Source: Acidobacteria bacterium 13_1_20CM_3_53_8 (lineage in GTDB: Bacteria > Acidobacteriota > Blastocatellia > Pyrinomonadales > Pyrinomonadaceae). From it: 64,000 bases of DNA. Positions 12,277 to 64,000 of this stretch are shown piece by piece (the first letter of the stretch is position 1; each line of letters starts with the position of its first letter). The stretch covers positions 124,001 to 188,000 of the forward strand of contig MNJR01000026.1 in NCBI GenBank assembly GCA_001920415.1, in the 5' to 3' direction. The notes below the pieces were generated by a model. That model did not search any database. It saw nothing but the letters and a program-made list of their open reading frames with translations, and was not told where the DNA came from. Made by a program: the position numbers and the translations under genes.

Positions 12277-12422
12277 GTCAGTACCGCCTGCGGTAGCGGG
12301 CGGGTGAAGAAGTCAAAAGGAAAAAGGAAAAAGTGAGAAGAAGCCAATCTTCTTATTTTCCTTTTGCCTTTTTACTTTTGACTTTGCTAACAGACCCGCC
12401 CGCTACCGCAGGCGGTACTGAC
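12277..12422. repeat. 29-bp-arm GC-rich palindrome (core I, copy 1) with a heptad element as its loop
   Basis: Left arm 12277-12305 (GTCAGTACCGCCTGCGGTAG, then CGGGCGGGT) and right arm 12394-12422 are perfect reverse complements. Each arm contains its own mini-hairpin ACCGC-CT-GCGGT. The loop 12306-12393 is a complete AAAAGGC/TTTTGCC heptad inverted repeat (A-3), so one palindrome is nested in another. Confidence 0.92.
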
Positions 12423-26699: not shown

Positions 26700-26848
26700 T
26701 ATAGCAATTCTCAGTTGAGTGCGACTAAAGTCAGTACCGCCTGCGGTAGCGGGCGGGTCATCGTCGCAGCATCACCCGCCCGCTACCGCAGGCGGTACTG
26801 ACCTGACCGCTTTGCCGCAGCATTCGCATTCAAGTGAGAACCGCTATA
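26700..26848. mobile_element. MITE-like element with TATAGC ends carrying core palindrome I (copy 2)
   Basis: About 149 bp. Terminal inverted repeats of about 24 bases: left TATAGCAATTCTCAGTTGAG, right (reverse complement) TATAGCGGTTCTCACTTGAA. Inside sits the 29-bp-arm palindrome (26730-26758 and 26774-26802). TATA-type ends and small size without coding capacity fit a non-autonomous IS630/Tc1-like element; no transposase is in the window. The mobile origin is an inference. Confidence 0.7.
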
Positions 26849-32552: not shown

Positions 32553-32685
32553 TATTACGGTTTACGATTGAGTGCGACTTATGTCAGTACCGCCTGCGGT
32601 AGCGGGCGGGTGTTGCTGCGACGATGACCCGCCCGCTACCGCAGGCGGTACTGACTTTAGTCGCACTCAACTGAGAATTGCTATA
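32553..32685. mobile_element. MITE-like element with TATAGC end carrying core palindrome I (copy 3)
   Basis: The right end (reverse complement TATAGCAATTCTCAGTTGAG) is identical to the left end of the copy at 26700; the left end (TATTACGG...GATTGAGTGCG) has diverged. The core palindrome occupies 32583-32611 and 32627-32655. The element reaches into the hicA reading frame. Confidence 0.7.
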
Positions 32686-48561: not shown

Positions 48562-49905
48562 ATGAGTGTTGCGCTCCGCGTCGAAAATGTTTCCAAGCAG
48601 TATAGAATCTACGACCATCCGGGCGACCGTCTGAAGGAGACGTTGTCGCGCGGGCGCTGGAAGTGTCACCGCGAATTCTGGGCGCTGCGTGACATTAACT
48701 TTGAAGTTGAAGCCGGAACTACGACCGGAATCGTAGGCCCGAACGGGAGCGGCAAGTCAACGCTCTTGCAGATCGTGACGGGTACGCTTGAGCCTACGCA
48801 CGGGCTAGTCTGGCACGAGGGAAGAATTGCGGCGCTGCTGGAACTGGGCGCTGGCTTTAATCTGGAATTCACAGGAATCGAAAATGTCTTCATGAACGCG
48901 GCGCTCATGGGCTTTTCAAGAAGTGAGACGGAGAAGCTTCTGCCTGAGATTGAGCGGTTCGCGGAAATCGGCTCGTTCATACACCAGCCTGTTAAGACCT
49001 ATTCGAGCGGGATGTATGTCCGTCTGGCTTTCGCAACTGCCGTGAGCACAAGCCCCCAAATACTCATCATTGATGAAGCGCTTTCCGTGGGCGATGCTGT
49101 CTTTCAACATCGCTGCCTGCGGCGCATACGCGAGATGCAGGCCGGGGGCACGACCATACTGTTCGTCTCGCACGATCCTTCGGCTGTTAAGGCGCTCTGC
49201 TCTCGCGCGATTCTTCTTAACGGCGGCAAGGTGCAGGCAGACGGAAAGCCCCTGGATGTTCTCAATCGCTACCAGAAATTGATAATGGAGCGCGAAGAGG
49301 CTTACGAGGCCGAACAATCTGAAGGCGAGCAAAGCGAAAGAGACGGAAACGTTTCTATCCAAGATGATAAAAGTTTGGGCCAACGAAGCCCTGCGCTTCA
49401 ATACAACTTCAGGCACGGCGACCGTAGCGCGGAGATTCTGAGCGCAGAGCTTCTGGATGCTCAGCGACGCTGCGTTGATCTCATTGAAAGCGGCGCACCC
49501 GTGCTTGTGCGTATGCGCGTTCTGTTTCACCGCGATGTGGACGATCCGCTCTTCGGCTTTCTCATACGCAACCGTCACGGCATACACGCATACGGAGCAA
49601 ACACAGAGCAAAAAAGTTTTCGCTTCGGAAAAGTTTTCAGGGGCGAAGTTGTTGAAGTAATGTTCAGCTTCGATTGCTGGCTCGCGGCAGACCTTTACAA
49701 CGTTTCGTTCGCAGCGCACAGCGAGGCCGGGATAAGCTACGATTGGATTGACGGCGTCATTTTCTTCCGCGTCATCGCGCCCGTGCCCGTCGAAGGCATA
49801 GCGAACCTGAATGCTACGGTCGCGGGCAAACGATTGGGACAAGTTTCTAGAGAGAAAAGCAGTGATCATGAAAGGGAGGTGACTTTGAGCGGTGGCCGAC
49901 CGTGA
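48562..49905 (+). CDS. wzt: Polysaccharide ABC exporter ATPase with C-terminal Wzt domain
   Basis: 447 residues. N-terminal ABC ATPase: VGPNGSGKSTLLQ Walker A near residue 57, an LLELGAGFNLEFTGIEN region typical of the Wzt/TagH class, signature KTYSSGM, Walker B ILIIDEALSVGD and H-loop FVSHD. After about 260 a linker leads to a beta-sandwich Wzt_C-like domain (about 285-430) with LVRMRVLFHRDVDDPLFGFLI, which in the family binds the modified end of the glycan before export. The gene is divergent from wzm and overlaps the next gene by 14 bases. Confidence 0.9.
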   Translation: MSVALRVENVSKQYRIYDHPGDRLKETLSRGRWKCHREFWALRDINFEVEAGTTTGIVGPNGSGKSTLLQIVTGTLEPTHGLVWHEGRIAALLELGAGFNLEFTGIENVFMNAALMGFSRSETEKLLPEIERFAEIGSFIHQPVKTYSSGMYVRLAFATAVSTSPQILIIDEALSVGDAVFQHRCLRRIREMQAGGTTILFVSHDPSAVKALCSRAILLNGGKVQADGKPLDVLNRYQKLIMEREEAYEAEQSEGEQSERDGNVSIQDDKSLGQRSPALQYNFRHGDRSAEILSAELLDAQRRCVDLIESGAPVLVRMRVLFHRDVDDPLFGFLIRNRHGIHAYGANTEQKSFRFGKVFRGEVVEVMFSFDCWLAADLYNVSFAAHSEAGISYDWIDGVIFFRVIAPVPVEGIANLNATVAGKRLGQVSREKSSDHEREVTLSGGRP

Positions 49906-50590
49906 AGTCGCAGAAATTTTAGGGGAGATACGCGAGCAGGTGCGATCTCAAAAACGGTCAGAGCTTCATTCAGCTTCGATCGTGGGTAACGGGCGCGCTA
50001 CTCAACTTGATCGTGATCTGATTGCGCTGCTCAAACGACTCTCTGTGCAGCTTGAGACGCTTGCTCGCGCGCAAGACCGTCTGCCTCCTGTGGTGAGCAA
50101 CCGAACGGGCTGGCTTGCGCGCCTTGAGCTTTGGGTCAAAGGGCAGGCTGGTCGTGCCACGCGCTGGTACGCATGGGAGCAGGTCAACTTCAATCGCGCG
50201 GTCACGGAAGCGCTCAGGGAGATTGCTGGCGCGCTCAACTCAATCGCGCATAATCAAGCGGCGGGCGAAACTTCTTATGGCACACGCGCGACGAATGATT
50301 CTGATCTAGCGTCGCTCGCGTCTAGAATTGCGGCGCTGAAAGTGTCTTCGCAAAAGATAGAAGAGTTAGACGCGGAAGTTGCCGGTTTGCGCAGAATATT
50401 GGATGAGCGCTTTTCTCAACTACGCGATGAGCAGCGCGTCCTGCTGGAACAAATTCTTGATGAGCAGCGTGTTCACTTGAAACAACTCGCGCTCGAGATA
50501 CGCGAGACGGCGCTTCGAGCAGAGCGCGACGCGCGCAGACTTGAAATGCGGCTTGACGAGATTGCCAACCGCAACGAACCGCCAGCATAA
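49892..50590 (+). CDS. Coiled-coil protein linked to Wzt
   Basis: 232 residues from a GTG at 49892, overlapping wzt by 14 bases. The sequence is highly charged with heptad hydrophobics: REVAEILGEIREQVRSQ at the start, LIALLKRLSVQLETLARAQ, and a long C-terminal helix ILDERFSQLRDEQRVLLEQILDEQRVHLKQLALEIRETALRAERD (pattern only). No signal peptide, membrane segment or catalytic motif is visible. The tight coupling to wzt suggests a partner in glycan export or in glycan length control, but this is only inference. Confidence 0.6.
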   Translation: MADREVAEILGEIREQVRSQKRSELHSASIVGNGRATQLDRDLIALLKRLSVQLETLARAQDRLPPVVSNRTGWLARLELWVKGQAGRATRWYAWEQVNFNRAVTEALREIAGALNSIAHNQAAGETSYGTRATNDSDLASLASRIAALKVSSQKIEELDAEVAGLRRILDERFSQLRDEQRVLLEQILDEQRVHLKQLALEIRETALRAERDARRLEMRLDEIANRNEPPA

Positions 50591-50828: not shown

Positions 50829-52931
50829 ATGGCCTTTGACCGCATCTCTAAATTCTACAAACAAAATTTCAGATTCATTCTTCTCGCAGTCATAGCCTGT
50901 CTCGTTGCGCTCGCGTGGTGGCAGCGCTTCGTGCTAGACGACGCTTTCATCTCGTTTCGCTACGCGGACAATCTGGCGCGCGGGTGGGGATTGGTCTGGA
51001 ACGAGGGCGAGCGCGTCGAAGGCTACACAAATTTTCTGTGGACTCTGCTGATGGCCGTGCCGATAGCGCTCGGTCTTAGCCCTGTAAGCTTTTCCATGGC
51101 GCTCGGTCTGCTGTCATTCGTAGCGTCGCTCTATTTCACTTATAGACTCGCCCTGTTGGTTCTCTCCTCCAAAACGGGCGCGCTCGTCACCATCATTATG
51201 CTCGGCACGAACTACACTTTCAGCCGCTACGCTACGAGCGGCATGGAGACTCAGCTTCAGGCGTGCCTGTTTGTGACGACTCTCTACGCGCTCGCCAGCG
51301 CTCAACGTTCAGGGCTATGGACGAACAGAAGATTTTTGGGAATCTCCCTGCTGTTAAGCCTCGCGCTGCTCACCAGATTGGACTCCGCGCTTCTTTTCGC
51401 AATTGTCTTTCCCGCCGCTCTCTTGCCAGTATTAAAAGAGAAGATTGAAGGCGAGCGAAAGGCCATGAAGGTTGCCTGTCTTTGCGCTCCGCTGGCCGCA
51501 CTCGTCGGCGGGTGGATGCTGTGGAAGCTTTATTATTACGGCGACATCTTGCCGAACACTTTTTATGCAAAAATCTCTTCGCTCAGCTCTTACATTGATG
51601 GTCTTAATTACGTTTACTATTTTTTTCGCTACTACTGGCTTCTTCCTCTGTTCCTGATACCTGTCATCACGCCGCGAAGATTTTCCCAAAAATTCAGCTA
51701 CGGCCTCTTGATTTCATTATCCGTGACAATCCTTTGGCTTCTCTATGTCATTAAAGTCGGCGGCGATTTCATGGAGTTTCGTTTCATTGTTCCCATCATG
51801 CCGCTCATCTTCGTAATCCTTGGCTGGATGGTCTTCTCGCTGCTTCGCAATCCCATACTTCAAAGTGCGTGCATTGCGCTCGTCATAGCAGGCTCCGTCT
51901 ATCACGGCAAGACATTCACGCTCACAGGAGGCGTGGAGCCAATCGAAGGGCTGGCCGGGCACGTGAGCGGCAGCGAATGCTGGGAGGATGCCGGGAAAGC
52001 TCTTGGGAAAGCTCTGAACTACGATTCGCGCGTCACGATTGCTGTCAGTCCTGCGGGCGCAATCCCCTTCTATTCGCGCCTGACGACGATTGACATGCTG
52101 GGGTTGAACGACCGTTGGATTGCGCGCAACGGCGCAGTGGTCGGCGAGAGAATCGGACATCAGCGTATGGCGACTGTGCAGTACCTGCTGGACAGGCGCG
52201 TGAACCTGCTGCTAGGCCCGGCATATCCCATGAGCCATGAGGTGAGAGCGCCAATATTTGGTGACGTTCCTTCAGCGCTGAACAACTTTTTCCTCCCAAC
52301 CGATCAGAGACAATACGATATACCCAAGACCTCTAAGCTAATAGAGATTCCCATCAGCAACGAATTGAAGCTGCCGGTCATGTATCTCTTCCCAAGCGCG
52401 ATTGTGGACGAAGCAATCGAGAGAGAAGGCTGGCGAACGTACCCGCTCGTCGCATCAGACACTGACCCGGCGACGTGGCCTGAAGACTTCCCCTTCTATA
52501 AACTCGGGACTAAAATCGCTTTCGCAGACGAGCAGGCAGGCCGCTACATTTGGGCAGGGTGGAGCGTGCGAGAGCCTTTCGGTCGGTGGAGCGATGCCGA
52601 GCGCGCAATGATAATCTTCGCTCTTAACGAAGACGAGATTCTAGACTCTGTGCTGCGCATAAAGCTCTGGACTTTCACAGCGCCCGGAAAGCTGAACGCG
52701 CAGCACGTCACCGTCTCGCTCAACGGGCGAGAATTGACGACGTGGCAGTTGAGCAATCCAGACATGGAAGAGTTCACGCTTGATATTCCGCGCGACGCGC
52801 TTTCGGAAAGAAACGTGCTTAGCTTCTACATGCCGGACATAGTCTCTCCCAAATCAATAGGCGTAAGTCCGAACGAGACACGACGCTTAGGCGTATACGT
52901 CGAGTGGGTCGAGATTGACGCCCAACGATGA
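50829..52931 (+). CDS. GT-C membrane glycosyltransferase (arabinofuranosyltransferase-like)
   Basis: 700 residues. About ten membrane segments in the first 400 residues and a soluble C-terminal domain. After the first helix comes the catalytic DD loop VLDDAFISFRYADNLARGWG followed by GLVWNEGERVEGYTNFLWTLL (quoted in part: WNEGERVEGYTNF), the layout seen in mycobacterial AftB and related proteins. GT-C enzymes use a lipid-phosphate sugar donor on the outer face of the membrane. The presence of DPPR-synthase-like and DprE1-like genes in the same window supports an arabinose-type donor. The acceptor is unknown. No signal of truncation is seen. Confidence 0.75.
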   Translation: MAFDRISKFYKQNFRFILLAVIACLVALAWWQRFVLDDAFISFRYADNLARGWGLVWNEGERVEGYTNFLWTLLMAVPIALGLSPVSFSMALGLLSFVASLYFTYRLALLVLSSKTGALVTIIMLGTNYTFSRYATSGMETQLQACLFVTTLYALASAQRSGLWTNRRFLGISLLLSLALLTRLDSALLFAIVFPAALLPVLKEKIEGERKAMKVACLCAPLAALVGGWMLWKLYYYGDILPNTFYAKISSLSSYIDGLNYVYYFFRYYWLLPLFLIPVITPRRFSQKFSYGLLISLSVTILWLLYVIKVGGDFMEFRFIVPIMPLIFVILGWMVFSLLRNPILQSACIALVIAGSVYHGKTFTLTGGVEPIEGLAGHVSGSECWEDAGKALGKALNYDSRVTIAVSPAGAIPFYSRLTTIDMLGLNDRWIARNGAVVGERIGHQRMATVQYLLDRRVNLLLGPAYPMSHEVRAPIFGDVPSALNNFFLPTDQRQYDIPKTSKLIEIPISNELKLPVMYLFPSAIVDEAIEREGWRTYPLVASDTDPATWPEDFPFYKLGTKIAFADEQAGRYIWAGWSVREPFGRWSDAERAMIIFALNEDEILDSVLRIKLWTFTAPGKLNAQHVTVSLNGRELTTWQLSNPDMEEFTLDIPRDALSERNVLSFYMPDIVSPKSIGVSPNETRRLGVYVEWVEIDAQR

Positions 52932-52933
52932 AG

Positions 52934-53010
52934 GCAGTTTTCAGTTTTTAGTTTTCAGTTTTAAGTTAAAGCAAGCAACTGAAAACTAAAAACTGAAAAC
53001 TAAAAACTGT
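52934..53010. repeat. Heptad inverted repeat, CTGAAAA/CTAAAAA (E-2)
   Basis: Left arm 52934-52964 (CAGTTTT CAGTTTT TAGTTTT) and right arm 52978-53010 (CTGAAAA CTAAAAA CTGAAAA CTAAAAA CTG). It fills the GT-C to methyltransferase gap and ends three bases before the next ATG. Confidence 0.9.
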
Positions 53011-53013
53011 TTT

Positions 53014-54348
53014 ATGGCCGAGCGAGAGAAAGAGAGTTTGTACGAGCGCGCAGGCATCAATGACCTGGCGCATTTTTACCGCACGCGGTTTGTGTCGGAT
53101 GAGTTGTTGGACGCGCGCTATTTCGATGCGCTCAACCGCTTCGACATTCGCTGGGCGCGCACCGTCTGGGTTTACGACAACGTGCGGCGCAACTCTAGCG
53201 TGTTGGATTTAGGCTGCGGCGGAGGCGTGCTCGCGCTGCTGAAAAGAAAAGGCGTGACGCTCTTCGGCGTGGACATCTCAGACGCTTGCGCTGCCGTCTC
53301 GCACTTGAATGGCTACGATGCGACATACGTTGCGCGCCTCACTGCGCTTCCTTTCGCGGACGCGAGTTTCGATTATGTGGTGAGCCTTGACGTGATGGGT
53401 CACGTGGAGTTTGCCGAAAAAGATGCTGTGCTGGCAGAAATCAGGCGCGTGCTTAAGCGTGACGGCGTAACCCTTCACGGCATTGAGAGCATGAACCGCG
53501 CGTGGCAGAAGGATTACAACGAGATGTCTGAGGAAGAGTTGCGGCGCTTCGTGCAGGTTGACGGGCATGTTGGTATGGAGGACGAGCCTTCAATCGCCGC
53601 CCGCTTCCGAAAATTTTTTGGGCACGTTCAGACCGCGTCGCGCTTCGGCGTCTGCCTGCCCAGCGATGTGATGACAAAGCTCGCGGACGAATACGACATG
53701 AAGGTTTGCGAGCCGGATTTTCTTGATTACCTGCGAAAACTTTCATTCAAAGAGCGGCGAGCATTCAACATGGCTATGGGCTATGTGTTCGATAAGATTT
53801 CCGAGCAAGGAATACCCTTGCCGCAGAGCGGCTACGTCTTCGTCAAAGCATCGAATCAACCGCTAGGCCAGTTCTACAACGAGCATCTTGATCGCACAGA
53901 CCTCTTCCCTTCATCATCGCACGCAAGAAGCCAGCATCAATCCATCTGTCTTGATCGCTCGACGCACGCCGCTTTCGACGCGGGCTGGCACGAGGCCGCG
54001 AGTTTTCCGCCCATCGCGCGCTGGATGAGCGAGAGAGGGCGCGTGAAATTCAAATCTACAAAAATCTCGCGGCTCAGTTTCGATCTGACAACGCACATGC
54101 CGGAGTTGACGGCGCGACCTTTAGGTTTAGAAGTTTATCTAAACGGCGAGCGTGTCCTCTGGCTTTCAATCATACAAACCGGATGGCAGGAGCTTTGGTT
54201 TGAAGTTTTCTCGGAAATTTCAGGCGAGACAGATTACGAGCTTGAGATAAGAGCAGACCGGACGTGGCAGCCCAGCCTTCATGACGACGCAAGCCCGGAC
54301 GACCGCGAGCTTTCGGTAGCAGTCTGCAACATAGAGATAATTCCTTGA
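53014..54348 (+). CDS. SAM-dependent methyltransferase, class I, with extra C-terminal domain
   Basis: 444 residues. Motif I VLDLGCGGGVLALL near residue 67, followed by LFGVDISDACAAV, LTALPFADASFDYVVSLDVMGHVE and EIRRVLKRDGVTLHGIES. The pattern fits UbiG/UbiE-like methyltransferases of envelope-glycan loci. From about residue 325 a beta-rich segment (RGRVKFKSTKISRLSFDL, LGLEVYLNGERVLWLSI) follows that could be a carbohydrate-binding or Wzt-like fold. Position between the GT-C protein and the YfhO gene suggests a glycan or lipid substrate. Confidence 0.78.
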   Translation: MAEREKESLYERAGINDLAHFYRTRFVSDELLDARYFDALNRFDIRWARTVWVYDNVRRNSSVLDLGCGGGVLALLKRKGVTLFGVDISDACAAVSHLNGYDATYVARLTALPFADASFDYVVSLDVMGHVEFAEKDAVLAEIRRVLKRDGVTLHGIESMNRAWQKDYNEMSEEELRRFVQVDGHVGMEDEPSIAARFRKFFGHVQTASRFGVCLPSDVMTKLADEYDMKVCEPDFLDYLRKLSFKERRAFNMAMGYVFDKISEQGIPLPQSGYVFVKASNQPLGQFYNEHLDRTDLFPSSSHARSQHQSICLDRSTHAAFDAGWHEAASFPPIARWMSERGRVKFKSTKISRLSFDLTTHMPELTARPLGLEVYLNGERVLWLSIIQTGWQELWFEVFSEISGETDYELEIRADRTWQPSLHDDASPDDRELSVAVCNIEIIP

Positions 54349-54402
54349 GAACTTCTTCGACGGCACTACGCTTTGAATGGTGAGCGGGAGCAACCAGCTA
54401 TA

Positions 54403-55314
54403 TCAATATGGGAAACCATCTTCAATTTTATCGGTTGTATCCTGTTTACCCTGCATGATGAAAAGCACAGAGCCATTTGTCCATGCCACACCTTTCCAGT
54501 CTGATGGATACCCCTGCGCTATTGTAAGTCTGGCTCCCCCTGGCAACATCTCGTCGTCACGCTGACTGATATTTGTACTGGGCCTGAAAACCAATCTGTC
54601 GCCAACAGCAGTCAATCCTTTTCTTTTAGTCCCCTGATCAACAACCGTTGTTGAGGGGCTAATCAGCTTTCTTAAATTCTGCAATCCTGCTTTCGCGTTC
54701 TCAACTGAGGAGAATTTAAATGCTGTTACTGAGACAGAGTCTGTTGATATACCTTGAGCTTCTACTGGCTGCGCGAAGTCGAACAGCGTCATCGTCGCAT
54801 TAGTTCGTCTCTGATAGATACCCTCCCAGCCATCTGTAGCACCGAGTTCCTGCCTGAGACCAGTTGTTTCGTGTGGATCGCTGAGTTGGTAATCACCTAT
54901 TGATTTCGGGAAAAGCTCGGCCAGCGATCCCCTGTAAACTCCAAGTGATGCCATAGGCCAGAAGATGTACAGAGCAAGTAGAATGACCAAGACGGAAGCT
55001 GCGCCGCCTATGATGAGCCACAGTTTTCCGCTTCGTTTCTTCTGTGGATAAGTTGATTGCTTTTCTTGATAAAGGGGCGGCGGTTCGGGTGCAAGTATAG
55101 TGGGCTGTGGGGTTGACTGTGGCGCTGGCATTGTAATACCGGGCATCGCCGCAGGATTTAAGACTTCGGTCGGCGTTGAATCGCTGCTACGAGGCGCGTG
55201 GATGCGCTTCGTTTCTTCTGGATCAAATGGAGCGGAAAGAATCGAGCCGTCAACTAAGCAGAAGGCCAGCGTATTGTCTGGATATGTGCGATTGCAGGTC
55301 GGGCAGCTTTTCAT
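54403..55314 (-). CDS. Zinc-ribbon membrane-anchored hypothetical protein
   Basis: 303 residues from the ATG at 55314 (MKSCPTCNRTYPDN). A zinc-ribbon-like start, C-P-T-C plus F-C-L-V-D-G-S, is followed by a Pro/Thr-rich linker, a basic stretch (KKRSGKLWL) and a single membrane helix (IIGGAASVLVILLALYIFW, about residues 118-137). The last ~160 residues form a soluble domain with no named family (SLAELFPKSIGDYQL ...). Comparable proteins are common in acidobacterial genomes. Function unknown. It is convergent with the preceding methyltransferase gene. Confidence 0.65.
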   Translation of the reverse strand: MKSCPTCNRTYPDNTLAFCLVDGSILSAPFDPEETKRIHAPRSSDSTPTEVLNPAAMPGITMPAPQSTPQPTILAPEPPPLYQEKQSTYPQKKRSGKLWLIIGGAASVLVILLALYIFWPMASLGVYRGSLAELFPKSIGDYQLSDPHETTGLRQELGATDGWEGIYQRRTNATMTLFDFAQPVEAQGISTDSVSVTAFKFSSVENAKAGLQNLRKLISPSTTVVDQGTKRKGLTAVGDRLVFRPSTNISQRDDEMLPGGARLTIAQGYPSDWKGVAWTNGSVLFIMQGKQDTTDKIEDGFPY

Positions 55315-55367
55315 GCGCTTAATGCCTCTGCTGTTTATTATCACCGAACAGTTTAATTAACAACTAA

Positions 55368-55503
55368 TAGGAGTTACACAGTTGACAGAAATGCTCAAGC
55401 CTTGTCAGTACCGCCTGCGGTAGCGGGCGGGTCTCTGCCGCACCAATCACCCGCCCGCTACCGCAGGCGGTACTGACCTGTTCGCTCAACTGCGTAACTC
55501 CTA
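55368..55503. mobile_element. MITE-like element with TAGGAGTTAC ends carrying core palindrome I (copy 4)
   Basis: Terminal inverted repeats TAGGAGTTACACAGTTGA (left) and TAGGAGTTACGCAGTTGA (right, reverse complement). The core palindrome is at 55404-55432 and 55449-55477. The ends differ completely from those of the TATAGC elements although the core is identical, so the core has been combined with another end type. Confidence 0.75.
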
Positions 55504-55505
55504 AA

Positions 55506-58436
55506 CTAATTTTTTCTAGCAGACTCGCGCCGAATGTAAAACGCAAGACCGCAGAGAAGAAACAGTGTCACGGCAGAGATAATCGCCCCGTTGCGCGCAG
55601 CAGGCGCAGTGTAGCGCATCTCCACACGATGCGAACCTTCCGGCAGCGCAACTCCGCGCAGCAAATAATCTGTCGTCAGAATCTGAGCCTTTTGCCCGTC
55701 AACAATCGCCTCCCATCCGGGATAGCTCATCTCGCTCACAACCAGAACAGAGGCCGTATCAGCGCTTGTTTCAATCAACAAACGGTTCGGCTCGTATGAG
55801 ACTATCTTCGCTGAAGAATTCTGAGAGATTGCACCGCCGGGTAATCGTGGAAGATTCTCTATGCTCGTCTCCAGAAGAGCAGTTCGCCTTGGGTCGAACT
55901 CGTGCTCGCTCTCGCCTCTGATTCTCTTCAGGGCTTCCTCATCGTCAACGGCTTCAGCCTCGGCCACAAGCCACGCGCGTGGCAGCGCACCTTCGTTGTG
56001 ATAGATGGCTACATTGTTCTCGTTGTAAACGGGTCGCCACTTATTTTTATCGAAGACCGTGAGTTGAAGAATCTGCGAATTTGAACTGGCGGAATCGTAA
56101 AGAATCGTGTTCCAGATAACGAGCGCAGTGTTGCCGGGCGCGATGTTGCTGATTTCAACCCGCTCGACATTTACCAGCTTGCCCAGAGCGATGCGCGTCC
56201 AGTAGCGATAAGAGGGGAAAGTTTCGTTGGACTTGCCGGGCTGGTCGAAGATTGTAGCCAGTTGATGGCGCACGATTGGCTGCACGTCGGGTCTATCATG
56301 CGCCCATTCCGCAGTGTCCACCCCTGCGCGAATCTCTCGCTCTATAATTTCACCATCAGTTGTTACGACGCGCACAAGGCCAACGGTCAGCCCCTGCCCC
56401 GCGCCAGCACCGTAAGAGAGCGTAGAAACGATTGCCAGCGTGTCGCCGCTCGCGGGAAATGTAGTCATCAAGCTGGACGATTCATCATGCTCTAAAGTGT
56501 AGCTGTCGTAATAGCGCGCGAACTTTATCCCTTCTCTCTCAAGCCTGTGGTCTGGAACTTCCAATGGGTTCACGTAAACGAGCGTGTAGGTCGTGTTCAG
56601 CAAATCCAGAACGTGAGAGCTTGATTGAAAGAGCGTAGGGTCTGGATTGTATTCGCCTCGCGTCCCAACGCCGTCGAGCCATGCGTTGCCTAACGCGCGA
56701 CTGTATCGCTCAAGCATCAACGGTTCGTAACCTGCAACATTCTGAAGCCCGTAAACCATCGTCAAGTTCTGCGAATCGAAAAGGGGATGCGGGTTGTATT
56801 CCTCCGCATCCAGGTGAACGCGCGTGTAGATGCGATTCTGTTCAGGAGGAAATTGTTGTAGAAGGCGAGTCGGCAGCGTAGGCGTAGTGATTCGACTAGC
56901 TGTTTTGGTCTGCGGCCACCACCACCTGGAAACCATTATGAAGGGATCGGAGAAGCAGCCTACGAAGATAACGCACGCGGCCAATATCAAACGCATTCGT
57001 GTTGGCGCGAGCTTCAAGACCTGCCAGAAAGCAAAGAGAAGCGGAATGGTGAAAAGAAGTTTCCAACGCAGATAGCTTGAGAGGGCTATGCTTATGTCCA
57101 TGTCTATATCTACGTCTGCGCTCTTCAAAGGCCGTGTCACACGCCACCAGAGCAGACCTATCAAAAGACTCAAAGCGAGCGGAACGACTGCCAACAAAAT
57201 ATCGCGCACAGTGCTTTGCTTCAGCCTTTCACGCGCGCCCGAAAATTTTTCCGAGATTGCATCCCACCCATAGGCCGAGAGAATGGCTACAGCAAACGTC
57301 CATTCGTAGCCGTGTCTTGCCGCCCCGCGAAACTTGTTTATGATGGGCACATAATAGAGCAGGCTATAGACGGGCGTGTATATGCCAAGCATCAAGACTC
57401 CTCCGACGAGCGCAATCGCCAGCCAGAAGAAGATGCGCGTATCGCGTCGCCTGTTACGAATTGCCGCCACTACGGCGCAAGCCCCGAGTAGAAGCGCCAG
57501 CAGCGGCACGTAGCCCGTAGCCAGATCGGTGTTAGTAATATAGATGGGAGCTAACACAGACTTTAAGAAGGTCAGCGGCGTGAACGAATGCTGGGCGAAG
57601 ATGGGAAAGCTCAAGCTGCTGCGAATGCTACGTCGCTGAGCGCGCATCGTCTCAAGTATCTGAAAAGCATCTAAGCCTACGCTGGTTACAATCGCAGCGA
57701 CTGTGACCAGCACAGGTCTCCAACGCTTCAACGTGAGCCATTCTTTCTTGACCTCGTGCGTTTCGCCGTTTGAATCAGGCTGGAATAGAGACAGGAAGAG
57801 AGCGTAAGCCATTGCCATCAGGCCAACGAACAGAAAGCCCTGGCCTATGCCTGTGAAGACAGACATTGAATATGCGGCTGTAGCCCATAGCCATGAGCGT
57901 ATGAATTTCTCTGTTAGCGAACGATCTATTGCCAGAAGCACCAGAGGCGTCCACATAGTAGAGTTTGGCAGAAGCCCGTTGTGCGTATAGCCTATAATCA
58001 TCAACCCGCCGTAACCGTAAGCGAGCGCAGCCAGAACAGATGCCAACCAGCTTCGCTTCAATTGCCGAGCGAAAGCGTATGTGAACAGAGGACAGAGCAG
58101 ATAAGGAGCCAGCACATAAATCTCTTCAGCCCAATGTCCGGGCAGAAACAAATAGCCCCACGTGAGCGGATAAGCCAAACCAATCTGTGCCATTGAGAGC
58201 AATGGATAGCCTGACAGTAATAGCGGAGTCCAGAGAGGAAGCATGCCATGACGAATCATGCTCCACGCCGTCATACGCTCTGGATAAAGCTCTATGTACG
58301 AGTCGAAGAAGAGAAAGAATCTGCCTCTAATGATTTCAGGCCCGAAGAAAATTATGAAATAGAGTGCGAAGAGCGAGATTGCGCCAAAACTTGCGCGATA
58401 CGCCCGCCAGAATCCTCGCAACCTCTCTCTATTCAT
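55506..58436 (-). CDS. YfhO-family membrane protein
   Basis: 976 residues. About twelve membrane helices in the N-terminal 500 residues, with the YfhO-type loop GPEIIRGRFFLFFDSYIELYPE (motif Y-P-E-R), YGYGGLMIIGYTHNGLLPNSTMWTPLVLLA (in part) and a second set after about 340. A large extracytoplasmic domain (about 500-930) ends in the conserved strand segments SEMSYPGWEAIVDG and LRGVALPEGSHRVEMRY. A last membrane helix precedes RRESARKN. YfhO proteins belong to the GT-C superfamily and transfer sugars to teichoic or similar polymers; here the acceptor is unknown. Confidence 0.85.
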   Translation of the reverse strand: MNRERLRGFWRAYRASFGAISLFALYFIIFFGPEIIRGRFFLFFDSYIELYPERMTAWSMIRHGMLPLWTPLLLSGYPLLSMAQIGLAYPLTWGYLFLPGHWAEEIYVLAPYLLCPLFTYAFARQLKRSWLASVLAALAYGYGGLMIIGYTHNGLLPNSTMWTPLVLLAIDRSLTEKFIRSWLWATAAYSMSVFTGIGQGFLFVGLMAMAYALFLSLFQPDSNGETHEVKKEWLTLKRWRPVLVTVAAIVTSVGLDAFQILETMRAQRRSIRSSLSFPIFAQHSFTPLTFLKSVLAPIYITNTDLATGYVPLLALLLGACAVVAAIRNRRRDTRIFFWLAIALVGGVLMLGIYTPVYSLLYYVPIINKFRGAARHGYEWTFAVAILSAYGWDAISEKFSGARERLKQSTVRDILLAVVPLALSLLIGLLWWRVTRPLKSADVDIDMDISIALSSYLRWKLLFTIPLLFAFWQVLKLAPTRMRLILAACVIFVGCFSDPFIMVSRWWWPQTKTASRITTPTLPTRLLQQFPPEQNRIYTRVHLDAEEYNPHPLFDSQNLTMVYGLQNVAGYEPLMLERYSRALGNAWLDGVGTRGEYNPDPTLFQSSSHVLDLLNTTYTLVYVNPLEVPDHRLEREGIKFARYYDSYTLEHDESSSLMTTFPASGDTLAIVSTLSYGAGAGQGLTVGLVRVVTTDGEIIEREIRAGVDTAEWAHDRPDVQPIVRHQLATIFDQPGKSNETFPSYRYWTRIALGKLVNVERVEISNIAPGNTALVIWNTILYDSASSNSQILQLTVFDKNKWRPVYNENNVAIYHNEGALPRAWLVAEAEAVDDEEALKRIRGESEHEFDPRRTALLETSIENLPRLPGGAISQNSSAKIVSYEPNRLLIETSADTASVLVVSEMSYPGWEAIVDGQKAQILTTDYLLRGVALPEGSHRVEMRYTAPAARNGAIISAVTLFLLCGLAFYIRRESARKN

Positions 58437-58459
58437 TATGCATACTCCACGAAGTTTTT

Positions 58460-58657
58460 GCCGCGCTAGCGGCTCGGATGAATTTAGCCCGGCGTTTCAA
58501 CGCCGGGAATCGCAAGTCAACGAGAGCAAAGGCGTCGCGTGAGCGACGATTGATAAAGTGATAATTCAACCGTCGCTAGCGCGACGAGGATCAAAAATTG
58601 GCACACTCTCCCGGCGTTGAAACGCCGGGCTAAATTCATCCGAGCCGCTAACGCGGC
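58460..58657. repeat. Long modular palindromic element (copy J-2)
   Basis: It has the same modules as J-1: GCCGCGCTAGCGGC, GAATTTAGCCCGGC, GGCGTCGCG/AGCGACGATTGA and their complements, with CCCGGCGTTTCAACGCCGGG as the inner hairpin where J-1 has TTTTCAAA. It begins 23 bases from the YfhO start, in the divergent gap before a methyltransferase gene. The remaining 58658-58811 holds only the next gene's leader. Confidence 0.88.
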
Positions 58658-58811
58658 TCATCTACGCATACTCTTAAATTTATCCCAATCGAAATTAATT
58701 CAAAACGGTCTTGATAAATAACCTGCGCGCGTCAGATTTGGCAAGCAACGCGCAAAAGGATAAATTAGATTTCGTTAAGATAGTGAATCATCAAAAGCAG
58801 ATTGGAAGAGA

Positions 58812-59813
58812 ATGAAGCACAGGCTATTACAGTATTTAACCTGCCCGTCATGTGGCGACGCAATAAAGCTATCGAACGTAACCAAAAGCGATGGCAGCGA
58901 GATTTTAGAAGGCGAGTTGCGTTGCGAGTCTAGCGCGCACTCTTTCGCAATCGAGCGCGGCATCCCGCGCTTCGCACGCCTGGGCGAGGTCGAACAGGAT
59001 AAGGCCGCGACAGCCGCTAGCTTCGGCTGGGAGTGGCGACATTTTACTCACGGCGATGAGCTATACGCTGACCAGCTTTTAGGCTGGCTGCATCCTGTCA
59101 AGCCCGAATTTTTCAGGGACAAAGTAGTGCTCGAAGGAGGCTGCGGCAAAGGGCGTCACACGCAATTGGCCGCGCGCTGGGGAGCGCGTGATGTCATAGG
59201 CATTGATCTGAGCGAGGCTGTTGAAACCGCCTTCACAGCGACGCGCAACCTTGAGAACGCGCACATCATTCAGGCGGACATCTACCGTCTTCCCTTCGCC
59301 AGAATCTTCGATTACGCCTTTTCCGTAGGCGTGCTTCATCATTTGCCAGACCCGCGCGCAGGGTTTCGGGGGCTTTCACAAAAAGTAAAACCGGGCGGCC
59401 ACATTTCCGCATGGGTTTACGGCGCGGAGAACAATGAATGGATAACGCGCTGGATTAATCCTCTGCGCGAGCGATTGACCTCACGCATCAACCCGCGCGC
59501 GCTGCTGCATCTCTCAGCGCTTCCGACCGCTGTGATGTACGCCGCGACCAAGCTAGTCTATGGCCCATTGAATCGCAGCGCGAGCGGCGCGCGCCTCGCC
59601 AGTCATCTCTTCTACAACGATTACCTGAACGCCATCTCCGTCTTCGGCTGGCGCGAGCAGCATTCCATTGTCTTCGATCACTTGGTCGCGCCGACGGCTT
59701 TCTACATCTCGCGCGCCGAATTTGAAGAATGGTGGCGCGAGATTAAAGCGAGTGATGTGCAGATTAGCTGGCACAACAAGAACAGTTGGCGCGGCTTCGG
59801 ACAAGTCAACTGA
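58812..59813 (+). CDS. Methyltransferase with Trm112-like zinc-ribbon start
   Basis: 333 residues, starting at an ATG with GGAAGAG just upstream. Residues 1-60 are a Trm112/UPF0434-like zinc part: LTCPSCGDAIKL, ELRCESSAHSFAIERGIPRF. A class I SAM domain follows: VVLEGGCGKGRHTQLAA, VIGIDLSEAV, QADIYRLPF, SVGVLHHLPDPRAGFR. The C-terminal ~120 residues contain hydrophobic patches that could touch the membrane. Proteins of this layout methylate lipids or glycans in many envelope loci. Substrate unknown. Confidence 0.8.
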   Translation: MKHRLLQYLTCPSCGDAIKLSNVTKSDGSEILEGELRCESSAHSFAIERGIPRFARLGEVEQDKAATAASFGWEWRHFTHGDELYADQLLGWLHPVKPEFFRDKVVLEGGCGKGRHTQLAARWGARDVIGIDLSEAVETAFTATRNLENAHIIQADIYRLPFARIFDYAFSVGVLHHLPDPRAGFRGLSQKVKPGGHISAWVYGAENNEWITRWINPLRERLTSRINPRALLHLSALPTAVMYAATKLVYGPLNRSASGARLASHLFYNDYLNAISVFGWREQHSIVFDHLVAPTAFYISRAEFEEWWREIKASDVQISWHNKNSWRGFGQVN

Positions 59814-59820
59814 GAGAATA

Positions 59821-59983
59821 ATTCAAAACCGAAAGCAATCACTCAACCTCTTAGCGAGCTTAAGCATTTTACTTTGCGCCTTTGCGTGAACCTGCAATTC
59901 TCTTGAAGCTCAAGATAGAGAGAATTGAGGGTTCACGCAAAGGCGCAAAGTAAAATGCTTAAGCTCGCAAAGAGTTTTGAATT
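59821..59983. repeat. Octad inverted repeat, CTTTGCGC family (copy H-5)
   Basis: Outer ATTCAAAAC (59821-59829) pairs with GTTTTGAAT (59974-59982). The next arms are TTAGCGAGCTTAAGCATTTT and AAAATGCTTAAGCTCG. Octads CTTTGCGCCTTTGCGTGAAC and GTTCACGCAAAGGCGCAAAG are fully complementary, with AATTCTCTTGA/TAGAGAGAATT inside. It lies between convergent genes and is the longest perfect example of the family here. Confidence 0.92.
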
Positions 59984-59992
59984 TCCGCGCCG

Positions 59993-60886
59993 CTATCGTG
60001 GTGAGATAAGCCAGAGCGTTAGTAGCAACCAGCCCAGGATTGAGACCAGAATGTGTGGGTCGCGGAAAAGCTCCTGCGCGGGGTCTGTGCCCGTCTGTTG
60101 AATATGCAGCGTGTAGAGATAGCGAAAGATCCCGTAGAGCACGAATGGCACTGTGTAGACCAAAGACTCTGTGTGATGCGTCTGAATCGTGACCGGACTC
60201 ATAGTGTAAAGGCTGTAGCAGAGAATCACGCAGGTAGCCGTCACAACTATCATCTTGTCCAGAAGCACTGGCGAGTAGTGCTCAAGCACACGGCGATGGT
60301 TCGTCTTCTCGTTTGAGAGCGCGTAAAGCTCTGCGCGTCGTTTGGCGAAACCAAGAAAGAGCGCAGTCATCAACCCGCAGAGCATCAACCACTGCGAAGG
60401 AGCAATCCCGATGCCGCTTGTCCCTGCCAGTATGCGCAGCATAAAGCCGCCCGCGATGATGAAGACATCCAGAAGAACTACGTGTTTCAACCCAAGCGAA
60501 TATGCCAGGTTGATTGCAACGTAAATCAGCAGTATGAACAGGACTGTGTTCGAGACAACTATTCCCAGCAGAAAGCCCACCAGCCACAGAATTATCATGA
60601 ACGAAAATGCCGCGCTCACCGAAATCGCTTTCGATGCCAGTGGGCGAAAGCGCTTGCGCGGATGATTAAGATCGTTCTCCCTGTCAAGAAAATCGTTGAT
60701 GATGTAAACGCCGCTCGCCACAAGCGAGAACGCCACGAATACCAGAAGCGCGCGTCTCAGCATCAATGGATCGCGCCATACGTTTGCGAAGAGCACGCCC
60801 ATCAACACGAAGCCGTTCTTCACCCACTGCCTGGGCCGCATCAAGCGCCACAGCGCCGTCACAGTTGTTTTAGCGTTAACTCTCAA
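59993..60886 (-). CDS. UbiA-family prenyltransferase, decaprenyl-phosphate phosphoribosyltransferase-like
   Basis: 297 residues, about eight membrane helices. The opening PRQWVKNGFVLMGVLFA and the aspartate motif NDFLDRENDLNHPRKRFRPLAS (N-D-x-x-D-x-x-x-D) match DPPR synthases such as mycobacterial Rv3806c more closely than quinone or heme UbiA enzymes. The second region RAELYALSNEKTNHRRVLEHYS is also of that type. The enzyme would transfer phosphoribose from PRPP to a polyprenyl phosphate. The dprE1-like gene lies upstream on the same strand, giving the next step of the same pathway. Confidence 0.8.
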   Translation of the reverse strand: MRVNAKTTVTALWRLMRPRQWVKNGFVLMGVLFANVWRDPLMLRRALLVFVAFSLVASGVYIINDFLDRENDLNHPRKRFRPLASKAISVSAAFSFMIILWLVGFLLGIVVSNTVLFILLIYVAINLAYSLGLKHVVLLDVFIIAGGFMLRILAGTSGIGIAPSQWLMLCGLMTALFLGFAKRRAELYALSNEKTNHRRVLEHYSPVLLDKMIVVTATCVILCYSLYTMSPVTIQTHHTESLVYTVPFVLYGIFRYLYTLHIQQTGTDPAQELFRDPHILVSILGWLLLTLWLISPR

Positions 60887-60935
60887 AGTTTATAGAGGCG
60901 TTCCATTGAATGCAGCCACTCTAGCAAGCGGCCAA

Positions 60936-61029
60936 GTCAGTACCGCCTGCGGTAGCGGGCGGGTCGTTGTTGCATGACTCTGCTGCTATCTCAAAACTCT
61001 ACCCGCCCGCTACCGCAGGCGGTACTGAC
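60936..61029. repeat. 29-bp-arm GC-rich palindrome (core I, copy 5)
   Basis: Arms 60936-60964 and 61001-61029 are perfect complements and identical to the other four copies. The loop is 36 bases. It separates the dprE1-like gene from the UbiA-like gene, so a long hairpin would form in any joint transcript. No clear outer terminal repeats are seen around this copy. Confidence 0.9.
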
Positions 61030-61050
61030 CTGTTTATACCTTACTCGGTT

Positions 61051-62427
61051 TCATTGCTTACCGATTTCAAGCATGCGCGCCAGGTCTGATTGAAAATGAT
61101 TCTCCGGGTCAACCTTTCGTTTGATCTTCTCCCATTCGGAAAATTTCGGGTACATGCGTCGAAAAGTTTCCGCTTTCACGCGCGTATCTTTCGCAAGGTA
61201 AACGCGCCCGCCATGACCCAGAACAATCTCGTCAAGACGATCAAGAAAACGGAAGAGTCCGGCGTCGCTCACAGGCATATCGAGCGCCAGCGTGTAGCCT
61301 TCCATGGGGAACGAGAGCAAGCCCTGATTCTGCGGGCCGAATCGTTTCAGCACCGCCAGGAAACTTGCGCGACGCTCGCGCGCCAATTCTTCCAATAGCT
61401 TGCGCAATCCTTCCAAAGATTCTACGGGCGGCAGAACGCACTGATACTGTATGAACCCGCGCCGACCGTACATGCGGTTCCAGTTGTTTATGCTGTCGAG
61501 CGGATGAAAGAATGTCGCGTAGTCCGTGACGAACGGCTCGCGCTTCGCCCCCTGCCAGAGATAATAGAACTGATTGAACGCTGAGATTGTGAGAGAGTTC
61601 AAGACCCATTGCGGGAGATCGAAAGGGAGATTAAGTTTCCCACGCTCTTTCAACAGAAGCGGCTCTTTGATTTTCCGGGAAAGCTCGGCAGCCTGCGCAT
61701 GATGCCCGCGCATCAACACGCTTCTTCCGAGCGCTCGCCCCTTTGCTAGACAATCAATCCACGCGACGGTGTAACGGTCGTCCCACTCTTCGCCTTCTAA
61801 CAAACTTAACGATGCGTCAAGGTCGCGCGCCTTGTCGTGTCGTACAACAACGTAAGCGCTCTCTACTGGCACCAGACGATAAGTAACTTCGGTGATGATG
61901 CCCGTCAAGCCCATTCCGCCGACTGTTGCCCAGAAAAGCTCTGAGTTCTTTTCCGGCGACGAGCGAACGCGGCTACCGTCGGCTAGAACAATCTCAATCT
62001 CCCTTGTGTTCGCGCCGAACGTTCCGTCGTGATGATGATTTTTGCCGTGAATGTCTGCGGCGACGCATCCGCCAAGCGAGACGAACCTAGTGCCCGGCGT
62101 GACGGAAGGAAACCACCCGCGCGGCAGAAATTTTTGGAAGACTTCAGCGAGCGTCATGCCTGCTTCGGCTGTGAGCCAGCCAGTACGCTCGTCGAAAGAG
62201 ATTGTGCGATCCAGCTTTTCCGTCATCATCACAACGCCGCCTTCGTTCATAGCGGCGTTGCCGTAGCTTCGTCCCTGCCCGCGCGCAATCATGCTCTCGT
62301 AAGATGACGGTTCGACCTCTTCTATTGTTTCAGGAGAGACGATTGCGGCGGAGGAGCGCGGGTAGCGACCCCAACCTGAAATCTCCTTAAAATCTTTTTG
62401 TAAACGCGCGGGAGTTTTAGTTGACAT
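61051..62427 (-). CDS. dprE1: DprE1-like FAD-linked oxidase (decaprenylphosphoryl-ribose 2'-oxidase type)
   Basis: 458 residues with a PCMH FAD-binding domain: RGQGRSYGNAAMNEGG, MTLAEVFQKFLPRGWFPSVTPGT (in part), SLGGCVAADIHGKNHHHDGTFG with the flavin-contacting His, and VGGMGLTGIITEVTYRL. The C-terminal half contains FQYQCVLPP and the ending RKVDPENHFQSDLARML. DprE1 oxidises the 2'-OH of polyprenyl-phospho-ribose, the first half of its epimerisation to arabinose; the reductase DprE2 is not in the window. The gene overlaps the upstream methyltransferase by 11 bases. Other sugar-oxidising family members cannot be excluded. Confidence 0.82.
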   Translation of the reverse strand: MSTKTPARLQKDFKEISGWGRYPRSSAAIVSPETIEEVEPSSYESMIARGQGRSYGNAAMNEGGVVMMTEKLDRTISFDERTGWLTAEAGMTLAEVFQKFLPRGWFPSVTPGTRFVSLGGCVAADIHGKNHHHDGTFGANTREIEIVLADGSRVRSSPEKNSELFWATVGGMGLTGIITEVTYRLVPVESAYVVVRHDKARDLDASLSLLEGEEWDDRYTVAWIDCLAKGRALGRSVLMRGHHAQAAELSRKIKEPLLLKERGKLNLPFDLPQWVLNSLTISAFNQFYYLWQGAKREPFVTDYATFFHPLDSINNWNRMYGRRGFIQYQCVLPPVESLEGLRKLLEELARERRASFLAVLKRFGPQNQGLLSFPMEGYTLALDMPVSDAGLFRFLDRLDEIVLGHGGRVYLAKDTRVKAETFRRMYPKFSEWEKIKRKVDPENHFQSDLARMLEIGKQ

Positions 62428-63637
62428 TCGCTGTGACTCGAATCTGCCCTGAACCGTTCAGCGCGAACCAGCAGACATCGTTGCTTACAAGATCGAACTC
62501 TAAGATATAACTGCCTACGGGCAGAGCGGGCACGCGAACTTCAAAGCTTACGGTCTGCCCCGGCAAGATTGGACGCCCCTCGCCCGGCGTCAGAGCCTCC
62601 CAGTGATAGCTGTGATGAAGCAGCTTTCCATCGGCGTCGTAGACATGACAGCCGAGTTGAACCGCACCGAGTCCGGCGCTTCTGGGAAGCCAGAGCGACT
62701 TGCTAGTATTCGTCACGGTAGCCCGCAGCGTAATGGGTTCGCCTTCGCGCGCGCTCAAACGGTCGGGCGCAATCTTTATCTCGCCCATAAGCCCCGTGCG
62801 GAAACGACTGTCCGAGATGACATCTTCGCCTTTGTATAGAAAGAAATTTCTCTGGTTCTGCAAAAAGTCTCGCGTGGCCTGCGCCCAACGCTGCAAGGCT
62901 TCGCCGCCCGCTAAAAAGTCATTAAAATCATCCAGGGTCAGATGAAATGTCGGCACGTTGAAGATGGCGAGTTTGATGTTCGTGAATCCTGCGCTTTGCG
63001 CTTGCTGCCAGATGTCTTCGATTACCACATCATTCTCGATTACGTTGAACGTCTTCATCTCGTACTGCGATTGCGGCGAGTGCGAATGCTCAGGCCCCGG
63101 CTCAGCGAAACCTGCTATGCCGCCTTCGACCAGAACGCGCGCCATCTCCGAAAGCACTTTCGGAGGGTTGGGCACGTGATGAAATGCGTCCAGGCAGATG
63201 ATTCTATCAACGCACGCATCGGGCAGGTTGAACCGCTCGCCATCGAAGAGCAGAAACTGCGGCTCCGGCTTTTCGCCTACGATGGGCTGACGATTGTAAA
63301 GCTCGCGCCCAATCTCTAGCGCCGTTGGCGAAACGTCAGTGGCTATGACTTTGCAGCCCAATTGCGTGAGATAGCGCGAAGCCCAGCAAGTGCCCGCGCC
63401 GAATTCCAGCACAGTCATTTCGGGGCAGAGCGACAGCCCTTGCAGCACCACAGCAAAGTTGATTAGCAGTTGCGCCGTCTCGTCAATCGAGCCGAAAGGT
63501 TTTGCGAGATGAAAGTTCCAATCCGACAAGCGCGAGAAATACTCTTCGGCCAGACGGTTTAGCTCCTCCAGAGAACTCTCCGCCATAAGCCTGCGCACAT
63601 CAATCAACTCTTCGTTTACTGCCAACGCTTTCTCCAA
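62417..63637 (-). CDS. Methyltransferase with C-terminal Wzt-type beta domain
   Basis: 406 residues from a TTG at 63637, or 389 from the ATG at 63586, which has AGG upstream. Class I SAM domain: VLEFGAGTCWASRYL, VIATDVSPTALEIG, FLLFDGERFNLPDACVDRIICLDAFHHVPNP (in part). From about residue 290 a beta sandwich follows: IKIAPDRLSAREGEPITLRATV, LGCHVYDADGKLLHH, LPGQTVSFEVRVP and LEFDLVSNDVCWFA. This domain is repeated, with clear similarity, in the gene that starts beyond the right edge (63755-64000). The dprE1-like gene overlaps its end. Such a protein could modify a growing glycan end. Confidence 0.78.
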   Translation of the reverse strand: MEKALAVNEELIDVRRLMAESSLEELNRLAEEYFSRLSDWNFHLAKPFGSIDETAQLLINFAVVLQGLSLCPEMTVLEFGAGTCWASRYLTQLGCKVIATDVSPTALEIGRELYNRQPIVGEKPEPQFLLFDGERFNLPDACVDRIICLDAFHHVPNPPKVLSEMARVLVEGGIAGFAEPGPEHSHSPQSQYEMKTFNVIENDVVIEDIWQQAQSAGFTNIKLAIFNVPTFHLTLDDFNDFLAGGEALQRWAQATRDFLQNQRNFFLYKGEDVISDSRFRTGLMGEIKIAPDRLSAREGEPITLRATVTNTSKSLWLPRSAGLGAVQLGCHVYDADGKLLHHSYHWEALTPGEGRPILPGQTVSFEVRVPALPVGSYILEFDLVSNDVCWFALNGSGQIRVTANVN

Positions 63638-63756
63638 AGGAAAGGCAAAAGGTAAAAGTAAAAAGGAAAAAGTTATAAGGCTAAAAGCATTTCAATTAAA
63701 AATTTAAAATTGGTTTCCGCCTCACTTTTGCCTTTTTACTTTTACCTTTTTACTTT
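63638..63756. repeat. Heptad inverted repeat, TTTTGCC/TTTTACC family (copy A-5)
   Basis: Left arm 63639-63672 (AAAGGCA AAAGGTA AAAGTAA AAAGGAA) pairs with right arm 63725-63755 (CTTTTGCC TTTTTACT TTTACCT). It fills the gap between two minus-strand genes that share a C-terminal domain, running from the stop of one to just before the start of the other. Confidence 0.85.
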
Positions 63757-64000
63757 AGTTCACTTCCACCTGCACATGTACCGTCGGCGAACCATTTTGT
63801 GTGAACCAGCACACGTCGTTGCTCACCATGTCCAGTTCGAGCACGTAGCTGCCTGCACAGAGAGGCGGGATGCGCGTGACGAGTTCAACTTTTTCATTCG
63901 GCATGATGGCGCGGCCTGTGTCCGGCGTGAGCGGTTCGGAGTGAAAACGATGATGCAGCAGCGTGCCATCGGGCAGATACACATGCACGCCTAATTCGAC
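63755..64000 (-). CDS. C-terminal fragment of a protein with a Wzt-type beta domain (partial)
   Basis: Only the last ~81 residues are in the window: VELGVHVYLPDGTLLHH, RIPPLCAGSYVLELDMVSND, VCWFTQNGSPTVHVQVEVN (given in parts). It matches the C-terminus of the adjacent methyltransferase (LGCHVYDADGKLLHH; VSNDVCWFALNGS), so the two are paralogues at least in this domain. The rest lies beyond the right edge. It is probably part of the same operon. Confidence 0.75.
   Translation of the reverse strand, partial: VELGVHVYLPDGTLLHHRFHSEPLTPDTGRAIMPNEKVELVTRIPPLCAGSYVLELDMVSNDVCWFTQNGSPTVHVQVEVN

Follow-up and report, generated by a model that had tools for sequence, protein, structure and literature searches.

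What does a DprE1-family oxidase accomplish in a bacterium in which no ortholog of its usual partner, DprE2, is found? The question is raised by a 64,000-nucleotide stretch of DNA (the window) from Acidobacteria bacterium 13_1_20CM_3_53_8, which comprises bases 124001–188000 of the 252-kb contig C44 in a draft genome of 6.1 Mb and 155 contigs (95.9% complete, 3.9% contamination; ~4% of genes may be absent from the assembly). Here, dprE1 lies beside a gene for a UbiA-family protein of the decaprenylphosphoryl-5-phosphoribose (DPPR) synthase type, within a region at 44.8–64 kb that is a surface-glycan cluster (Table 1). The original prediction read these two proteins, an AftB-like GT-C glycosyltransferase and Wzm/Wzt exporter genes as parts of a polyprenyl-phospho-arabinose pathway, and every open reading frame (ORF) that it named is present where it was placed. 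We favor, with a probability of roughly 0.5, a DprE2-less pathway to a polyprenyl-phospho-pentofuranose donor, most likely finished by an unlinked reductase that would give arabinofuranose (Araf). Such gene sets are already known outside Actinobacteria; the missing DprE2 is the unusual part. DprE1, a drug target in tuberculosis, is usually considered alongside DprE2, and a conserved synthase–DprE1 pair without DprE2 in two genera offers a natural test of DprE1 alone and of substitute reductases.

The synthase and the oxidase

The UbiA-family protein scores 287 bits against NF008977, the NCBIfam equivalog model for decaprenyl-phosphate phosphoribosyltransferase (cut-off 234), and also passes NF008978 (207.3 bits; cut-off 207). 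Its closest solved structure is Rv3806c (8j8j; E 7e-37), and it retains all 24 columns that are invariant among its relatives. The Mg and phosphoribosyl pyrophosphate (PRPP) residues of Rv3806c have been reported, and the phosphoribose site is not conserved across the rest of the UbiA superfamily (PMC10994848). When residues listed in that study were matched by hand from alignments, all ten (R22, K28, Y70, N73, D77, K87, R90, Y138, K143 and K191) were found to be kept, as R17, K23, Y61, N64, D68, K78, R81, Y129, K134 and K182, respectively. From this sequence evidence, we strongly infer that the protein is a true phosphoribosyl-polyprenyl-phosphate synthase, predicted to transfer phosphoribose from PRPP; passage of the equivalog cut-off and retention of the PRPP-site residues bear out its original description as DPPR-synthase-like. 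That it could instead be a quinone or heme prenyltransferase, close to DprE1 by coincidence, is hardly credible. It does match CyoE/UbiA (quinone, heme) and archaeal-lipid models, but weakly (24–46 bits), and the 287-bit family score already rejects such an assignment; the first refutation test that the original prediction had set itself thus comes out in its favor. Moreover, the PRPP-site residues are conserved, and in 50 of 58 scorable loci DprE1 has a UbiA of this type no more than 8 kb away (a locus was scorable if it had 1.2 kb or more on each flank; the scan of genome contigs gave 70 DprE1 loci in all).

The DprE1-family protein aligns over its full length with a solved DprE1 (4aut, residues 12–455; E 4e-103) and keeps 37 of the 39 columns that are invariant in the other alignment rows, the exceptions being D57N and R452M. 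Against NF053785, it scores 473.5 bits over 441 residues and misses the cut-off of 500 by 26 bits, and for that reason we assign it to the DprE1 family without certifying it as an equivalog. This shortfall is not peculiar to the window protein, because DprE1 proteins of two DprE2-bearing relatives in the same class (G026 and G034) also fall below 500, by a smaller amount (480–493 bits). The mycobacterial motif GWNVCVDFP reads GYTLALDMP in our alignment; its cysteine, C387 in M. tuberculosis and known as the target of benzothiazinones, is thus an alanine here. The replacement is not special to the window, because the other rows of the same alignment (A5) also have alanine, with the exception of a threonine in G066, a genome from another genus in the host's family (completeness rounded to 100%, ~60 contigs). 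Eleven positions that are invariant in the sister clade and changed in both the window and G066 are scattered and mostly variable elsewhere, and we drew no conclusion from them as a possible trace of a lost DprE2 contact. The end-to-end match and the retained invariants uphold the proposed DprE1-like oxidase and mark the enzyme as genuine, with oxidation of the 2'-OH as its predicted reaction.

The gap between dprE1 and ubiA

DprE1 and UbiA trees (quick search, no bootstrap) join the window proteins with those of G066 (SH-aLRT support of 99 and 100), and this clade nests inside a beta/gammaproteobacterial and Zixibacteria group, apart from the DprE1 proteins of other members of the class. The closest operons, which belong to that group, run in the order DprE1–DprE2–HAD phosphatase–UbiA: DprE2 adjoins DprE1 in 20 of 20 scorable loci, a HAD phosphatase gene follows DprE2 in 19, and ubiA is downstream where found. 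Across all 58 scorable loci, DprE2 is within 1.5 kb of DprE1 in 56 and a HAD phosphatase gene within 3 kb in 27, and hosts in the full set of 70 include many Pseudomonadota, Bacteroidota, Armatimonadota and others. The non-actinobacterial context that first drew attention to this locus is thus unremarkable, because such operons are common outside Actinobacteria. Within the host's family, DprE1 is rare (6 of 119 genomes).

In the window, a 164-bp gap occupies the site at which the closest operons carry dprE2, in most cases with a HAD phosphatase gene, and a tblastn search of DprE2 against this gap gave no match to a remnant. Neither ORF reading nor a genome search found dprE2 in the 39 kb that follow position 64000, where the original prediction had suggested looking, and searches of the whole draft with profiles from two alignments built here (A1 and A2, rather than the curated model NF053786) found no DprE2 ortholog. 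As far as the assembly reaches, and at the ortholog level, the genome therefore shows the absence that the original prediction had named as evidence against its pathway. The top short-chain dehydrogenase/reductase (SDR) of the host scores 139 bits against the DprE2 profile, versus 213–362 bits in six DprE1-bearing relatives of the class. DprE2 was likewise not found in G066 (top SDR, 128 bits), where GT-C and DprE1 come first in the row, a gap of 282 bp follows, and then UbiA, a methyltransferase and YfhO; these five are linked there at 46–70% identity. Among the other DprE1-bearing class relatives examined, all have DprE2 except G066 and a 2.5-Mb draft, G077. In G077, a 3-kb contig (L156) carries UbiA–DprE1 followed by a gene that is not DprE2, and no DprE2 was found; its sister genomes G067 and G096 have UbiA–DprE1–DprE2. 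This could possibly be a second loss, although with so short a contig and an incomplete draft it is a weak additional case. Another weak case is locus L096, with DprE1 but neither DprE2 nor UbiA within 10 kb, and no DprE2 found in the genome.

Judging from the trees and gene order, an ancestor common to the host and genus g42 probably lost both dprE2 and the HAD phosphatase gene, which had stood between dprE1 and ubiA. We think it quite improbable that dprE2 simply sits in an unassembled part of the genome and serves an ordinary DprE1/DprE2 pathway. The assembly's incompleteness and fragmentation would permit this, and in two other genomes (G034 and G038) the three genes do not form a cluster but are dispersed, but the G066 assembly, with its completeness rounded to 100%, also has the DprE1–UbiA gap and no DprE2. 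A different possibility is that the DprE1–UbiA pair is what remains of a transferred operon and makes at most polyprenyl-phospho-ribose, with DprE1 idle or decaying. Two genes are gone from the middle of the ancestral order, and a palindromic repeat fills the gap, as this reading would have it; nevertheless, the same arrangement persists in two genera at 63–70% protein identity (DprE1, 63%; UbiA, ~70%) with invariant residues kept. When the window and G066 are compared, the DprE1 genes show differences of 0.31/0.22/0.61 at codon positions 1/2/3 and the UbiA genes 0.30/0.15/0.55, so that the frequency at third positions is ~2 to 3.6 times that at first or second positions. This pattern points to purifying selection, but the numbers are coarse, and constraint may have relaxed after a recent loss. 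Because the invariants are kept and third positions differ most, decay of DprE1 and UbiA is unlikely, and we regard the leftover explanation as a whole as very doubtful.

The repeat in the gap is REPIN-like, and the genome contains 262 copies of its 27-nucleotide core arm (132 forward and 130 reverse). Other copies in the window lie at 12279–12420, 26732–26800, 32585–32653 and 55404–55477. All listed copies are exact, which suggests either recent amplification or strong retention of the element. The dprE1–ubiA gap of G066 seems to contain a related half-site. A second inverted repeat, with 59-nucleotide arms that are 93% complementary, lies just downstream of ubiA (59845–59977).

Completing the donor

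In the pathway that we favor, UbiA would move 5-phosphoribose from PRPP onto polyprenyl phosphate, a step strongly suggested by its family and active site; a phosphatase would remove the 5'-phosphate; and DprE1 would, again by strong inference, oxidize the 2'-OH to give a 2-keto intermediate. In the closest operons, DprE2 reduces this intermediate to an Araf lipid. Here, an unlinked reductase, for example another SDR, would most likely complete the epimerization in trans, after which polyprenyl-phospho-Araf would be flipped out and GT-C enzymes with C-terminal extra domains could decorate the exported glycan. An unlinked SDR is the easiest answer for the reduction, because Rv2073c and its Corynebacterium ortholog NCgl1429 are SDRs that partly replace DprE2 (PMC11497083).

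Several observations weigh against this proposal. The obvious candidate, the 139-bit SDR of the host (C61:53487), was rejected as DprE2: it is of the PRK07024 type and falls outside the DprE2 clade, in a clade of its own to which six family genomes contribute one ortholog each. It sits between RNase J and uppP, as does its counterpart in G001, which also has a true DprE2. This SDR is thus a family-wide gene found alongside DprE2 as well, and its recruitment is for that reason a guess. The cluster has no linked reductase candidate, and none is specific to the DprE2-less genomes. For the phosphatase, the top HAD match in the host genome reaches 57 bits (55 bits in G001), in a search that did not extend to other types such as PAP2; class relatives with DprE2 likewise have no good match, so the host's lack of one says little. 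Finally, no counterpart of the AftB-like GT-C turned up in the G066 cluster, which places this protein outside the conserved core. Of the polyprenyl-phospho-arabinose pathway first proposed, the pairing of a UbiA synthase with a true DprE1 amid GT-C polysaccharide genes stands, whereas arabinose as the end product is unsupported, since the search of the genome yielded no DprE2 ortholog.

Alternatively, DprE1 could catalyze the last redox step, with the 2-keto pentofuranosyl lipid either used unchanged or channeled elsewhere, for instance by linked methyltransferases, to give a keto or modified pentose. The lack of a DprE2 ortholog in two genera in which DprE1 and UbiA stay conserved is consistent with this idea, as is the linkage of a methyltransferase to the pair in both genomes, with an 11-bp overlap with dprE1 in the window. 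However, the methyltransferase family is broad and its members may instead have the glycan as their substrate, the genome is rich in SDRs, which would make reduction in trans easy, and we know of no pathway that stops at the 2-keto intermediate. We consider this alternative unlikely. Slightly less probable still is its sharpest form, in which DprE1 would be a terminal oxidase rather than half of an epimerase, and the keto lipid or a methyltransferase product would serve as donor of a keto or branched pentose in the surface glycan.

The surrounding cluster and known systems

The GT-C protein encoded at 50829–52931 matches AftB (9dlf) with E 3.6e-7 as a single sequence and E 5e-59 as a four-row profile, whose rows include homologues from two gammaproteobacterial records and one from Acidimicrobiales; in both gammaproteobacterial records, the homologue's gene adjoins UbiA and DprE1. 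Its D38, R183 and R318 align with the catalytic D62 and essential R221 and R372 of AftB (PMC12041299). Against the curated AftB equivalog, it scores 33 bits (cut-off 1050), and we therefore call it AftB-like. The profile match and the retained residues confirm it as a distant AftB relative that keeps predicted catalytic and donor-site residues. It shares a C-terminal domain (37% identity over 151 residues) with the 611-residue GT-C encoded just beyond the window, and GT-C proteins of G066 carry this domain too. An AlphaFold model of the AftB-like protein was too poor to use (mean pLDDT 40) and was discarded. The idea that the GT-C next to G066 DprE1 is homologous to the PMT-like GT-C of Gallionella was rejected, there being no BLAST similarity. 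UbiA, an AftB-like GT-C and DprE1 also occur together in L108, a record titled as a Klebsiella pneumoniae metagenome-assembled genome (MAG); it is close to the gammaproteobacterial MAG L102 and is probably a mislabelled bin.

The Wzm/Wzt exporter genes proved real, with PF01061 in Wzm and the PF14524 Wzt_C domain in Wzt, and the 232-residue protein that follows may belong to the exporter. By contrast, the Wzt-like domains originally assigned to the methyltransferases gave no Wzt_C match in Pfam, and at best an immunoglobulin-like fold is hinted at. The methyltransferase whose gene overlaps dprE1 is 62% identical to the DprE1–UbiA-linked methyltransferase of G066. Tandem paralogues precede dprE1 in the host; G066 has one copy, downstream of ubiA. 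Beyond the 611-residue GT-C are a PIG-V-like GT-C, one GT2 and GT4 enzymes. No MATE or SMR flippase was noticed among the inspected cluster ORFs, and no genome-wide search for one was made.

Table 1 Features of the glycan cluster, in window coordinates
Feature	Position	Strand	Evidence or remark
O-antigen ligase-like protein (Wzy_C)	44795–46285	+	PF04932, E 1.6e-16
Wzm-like ABC-2 permease	47553–48386	-	PF01061; divergent from wzt
Wzt-like ABC exporter ATPase with Wzt_C carbohydrate-binding domain	48562–49905	+	PF00005, PF14524
232-aa protein	49892–50590		No Pfam match; start overlaps wzt end
AftB-like GT-C glycosyltransferase, 700 aa, C-terminal domain of ~150 aa	50829–52931	+	9dlf, profile, D/R/R residues
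S-adenosylmethionine (SAM) methyltransferase with C-terminal extension	53014–54348	+	PF08241
YfhO-like membrane protein, 976 aa	55506–58436	-	PF09586; homologue in G066 cluster, 46%
SAM methyltransferase with Trm112p-like N-terminus	58812–59813	+	PF08241
UbiA-family polyprenyl-phosphate phosphoribosyltransferase (DPPR synthase type, predicted), 297 aa	59993–60886	-	NF008977, 8j8j, invariant columns
dprE1–ubiA gap, 164 bp	60887–61050		Closest operons have dprE2, mostly with a HAD phosphatase gene, at this site
REPIN-like inverted repeat	60933–61032		32-nt arms around 36 nt
DprE1-family FAD oxidase (predicted polyprenylphosphoryl-beta-D-ribose 2'-oxidase), 458 aa	61051–62427	-	NF053785, 4aut, invariant columns
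SAM methyltransferase with C-terminal extension	62417–63637	-	PF08241; overlaps dprE1 start by 11 bp
Paralogous methyltransferase, 3' part	63755–64000	-	Gene (L007:755-1963) runs past window to ~64963
611-aa GT-C, beyond window	~65085–66920 (L007:2085-3920)	-	Follows second methyltransferase

After G066, the nearest relatives of both window proteins (51–60% identity) are encoded by Gallionella, Nitrosomonadales and Zixibacteria operons (L053–L070, L076, L115 and L118), which differ from the window in having kept DprE2 (20 of 20) and the HAD phosphatase (19 of 20). The mycobacterial decaprenyl-phospho-arabinose pathway (Rv3806c, Rv3807c, DprE1, DprE2 and AftB) has a homologous DPPR synthase and DprE1, and its AftB shares the D/R/R residues with our GT-C; in contrast, no DprE2 ortholog was found in the host. 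Of the mycobacterial arabinosyltransferases, only the AftB relative was seen, and no genome-wide search for Emb, AftA or AftD was made. Rv2073c and NCgl1429 provide a precedent for an SDR other than DprE2 serving the second epimerization step.

More broadly, three-component systems make Araf and ribofuranose side chains, a route from PRPP through UbiA to a GT-C has been shown in Citrobacter, and DprE1/E2 homologues are reported from Araf-containing systems (PMC11127046). The window differs in having DprE1 without a linked DprE2, and no PRP/HAD phosphatase was found. The Citrobacter youngae O1/O2 locus (ORF12–15, GT136; PMC11127046) shares with the window a PRPP-using UbiA-type synthase in the setting of an ABC-exported polysaccharide, as well as GT-C enzymes with C-terminal extra domains; in the prototype, the C-terminal domain is carbohydrate-binding. 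With the window, the published three-component pentofuranose systems gain a further case.

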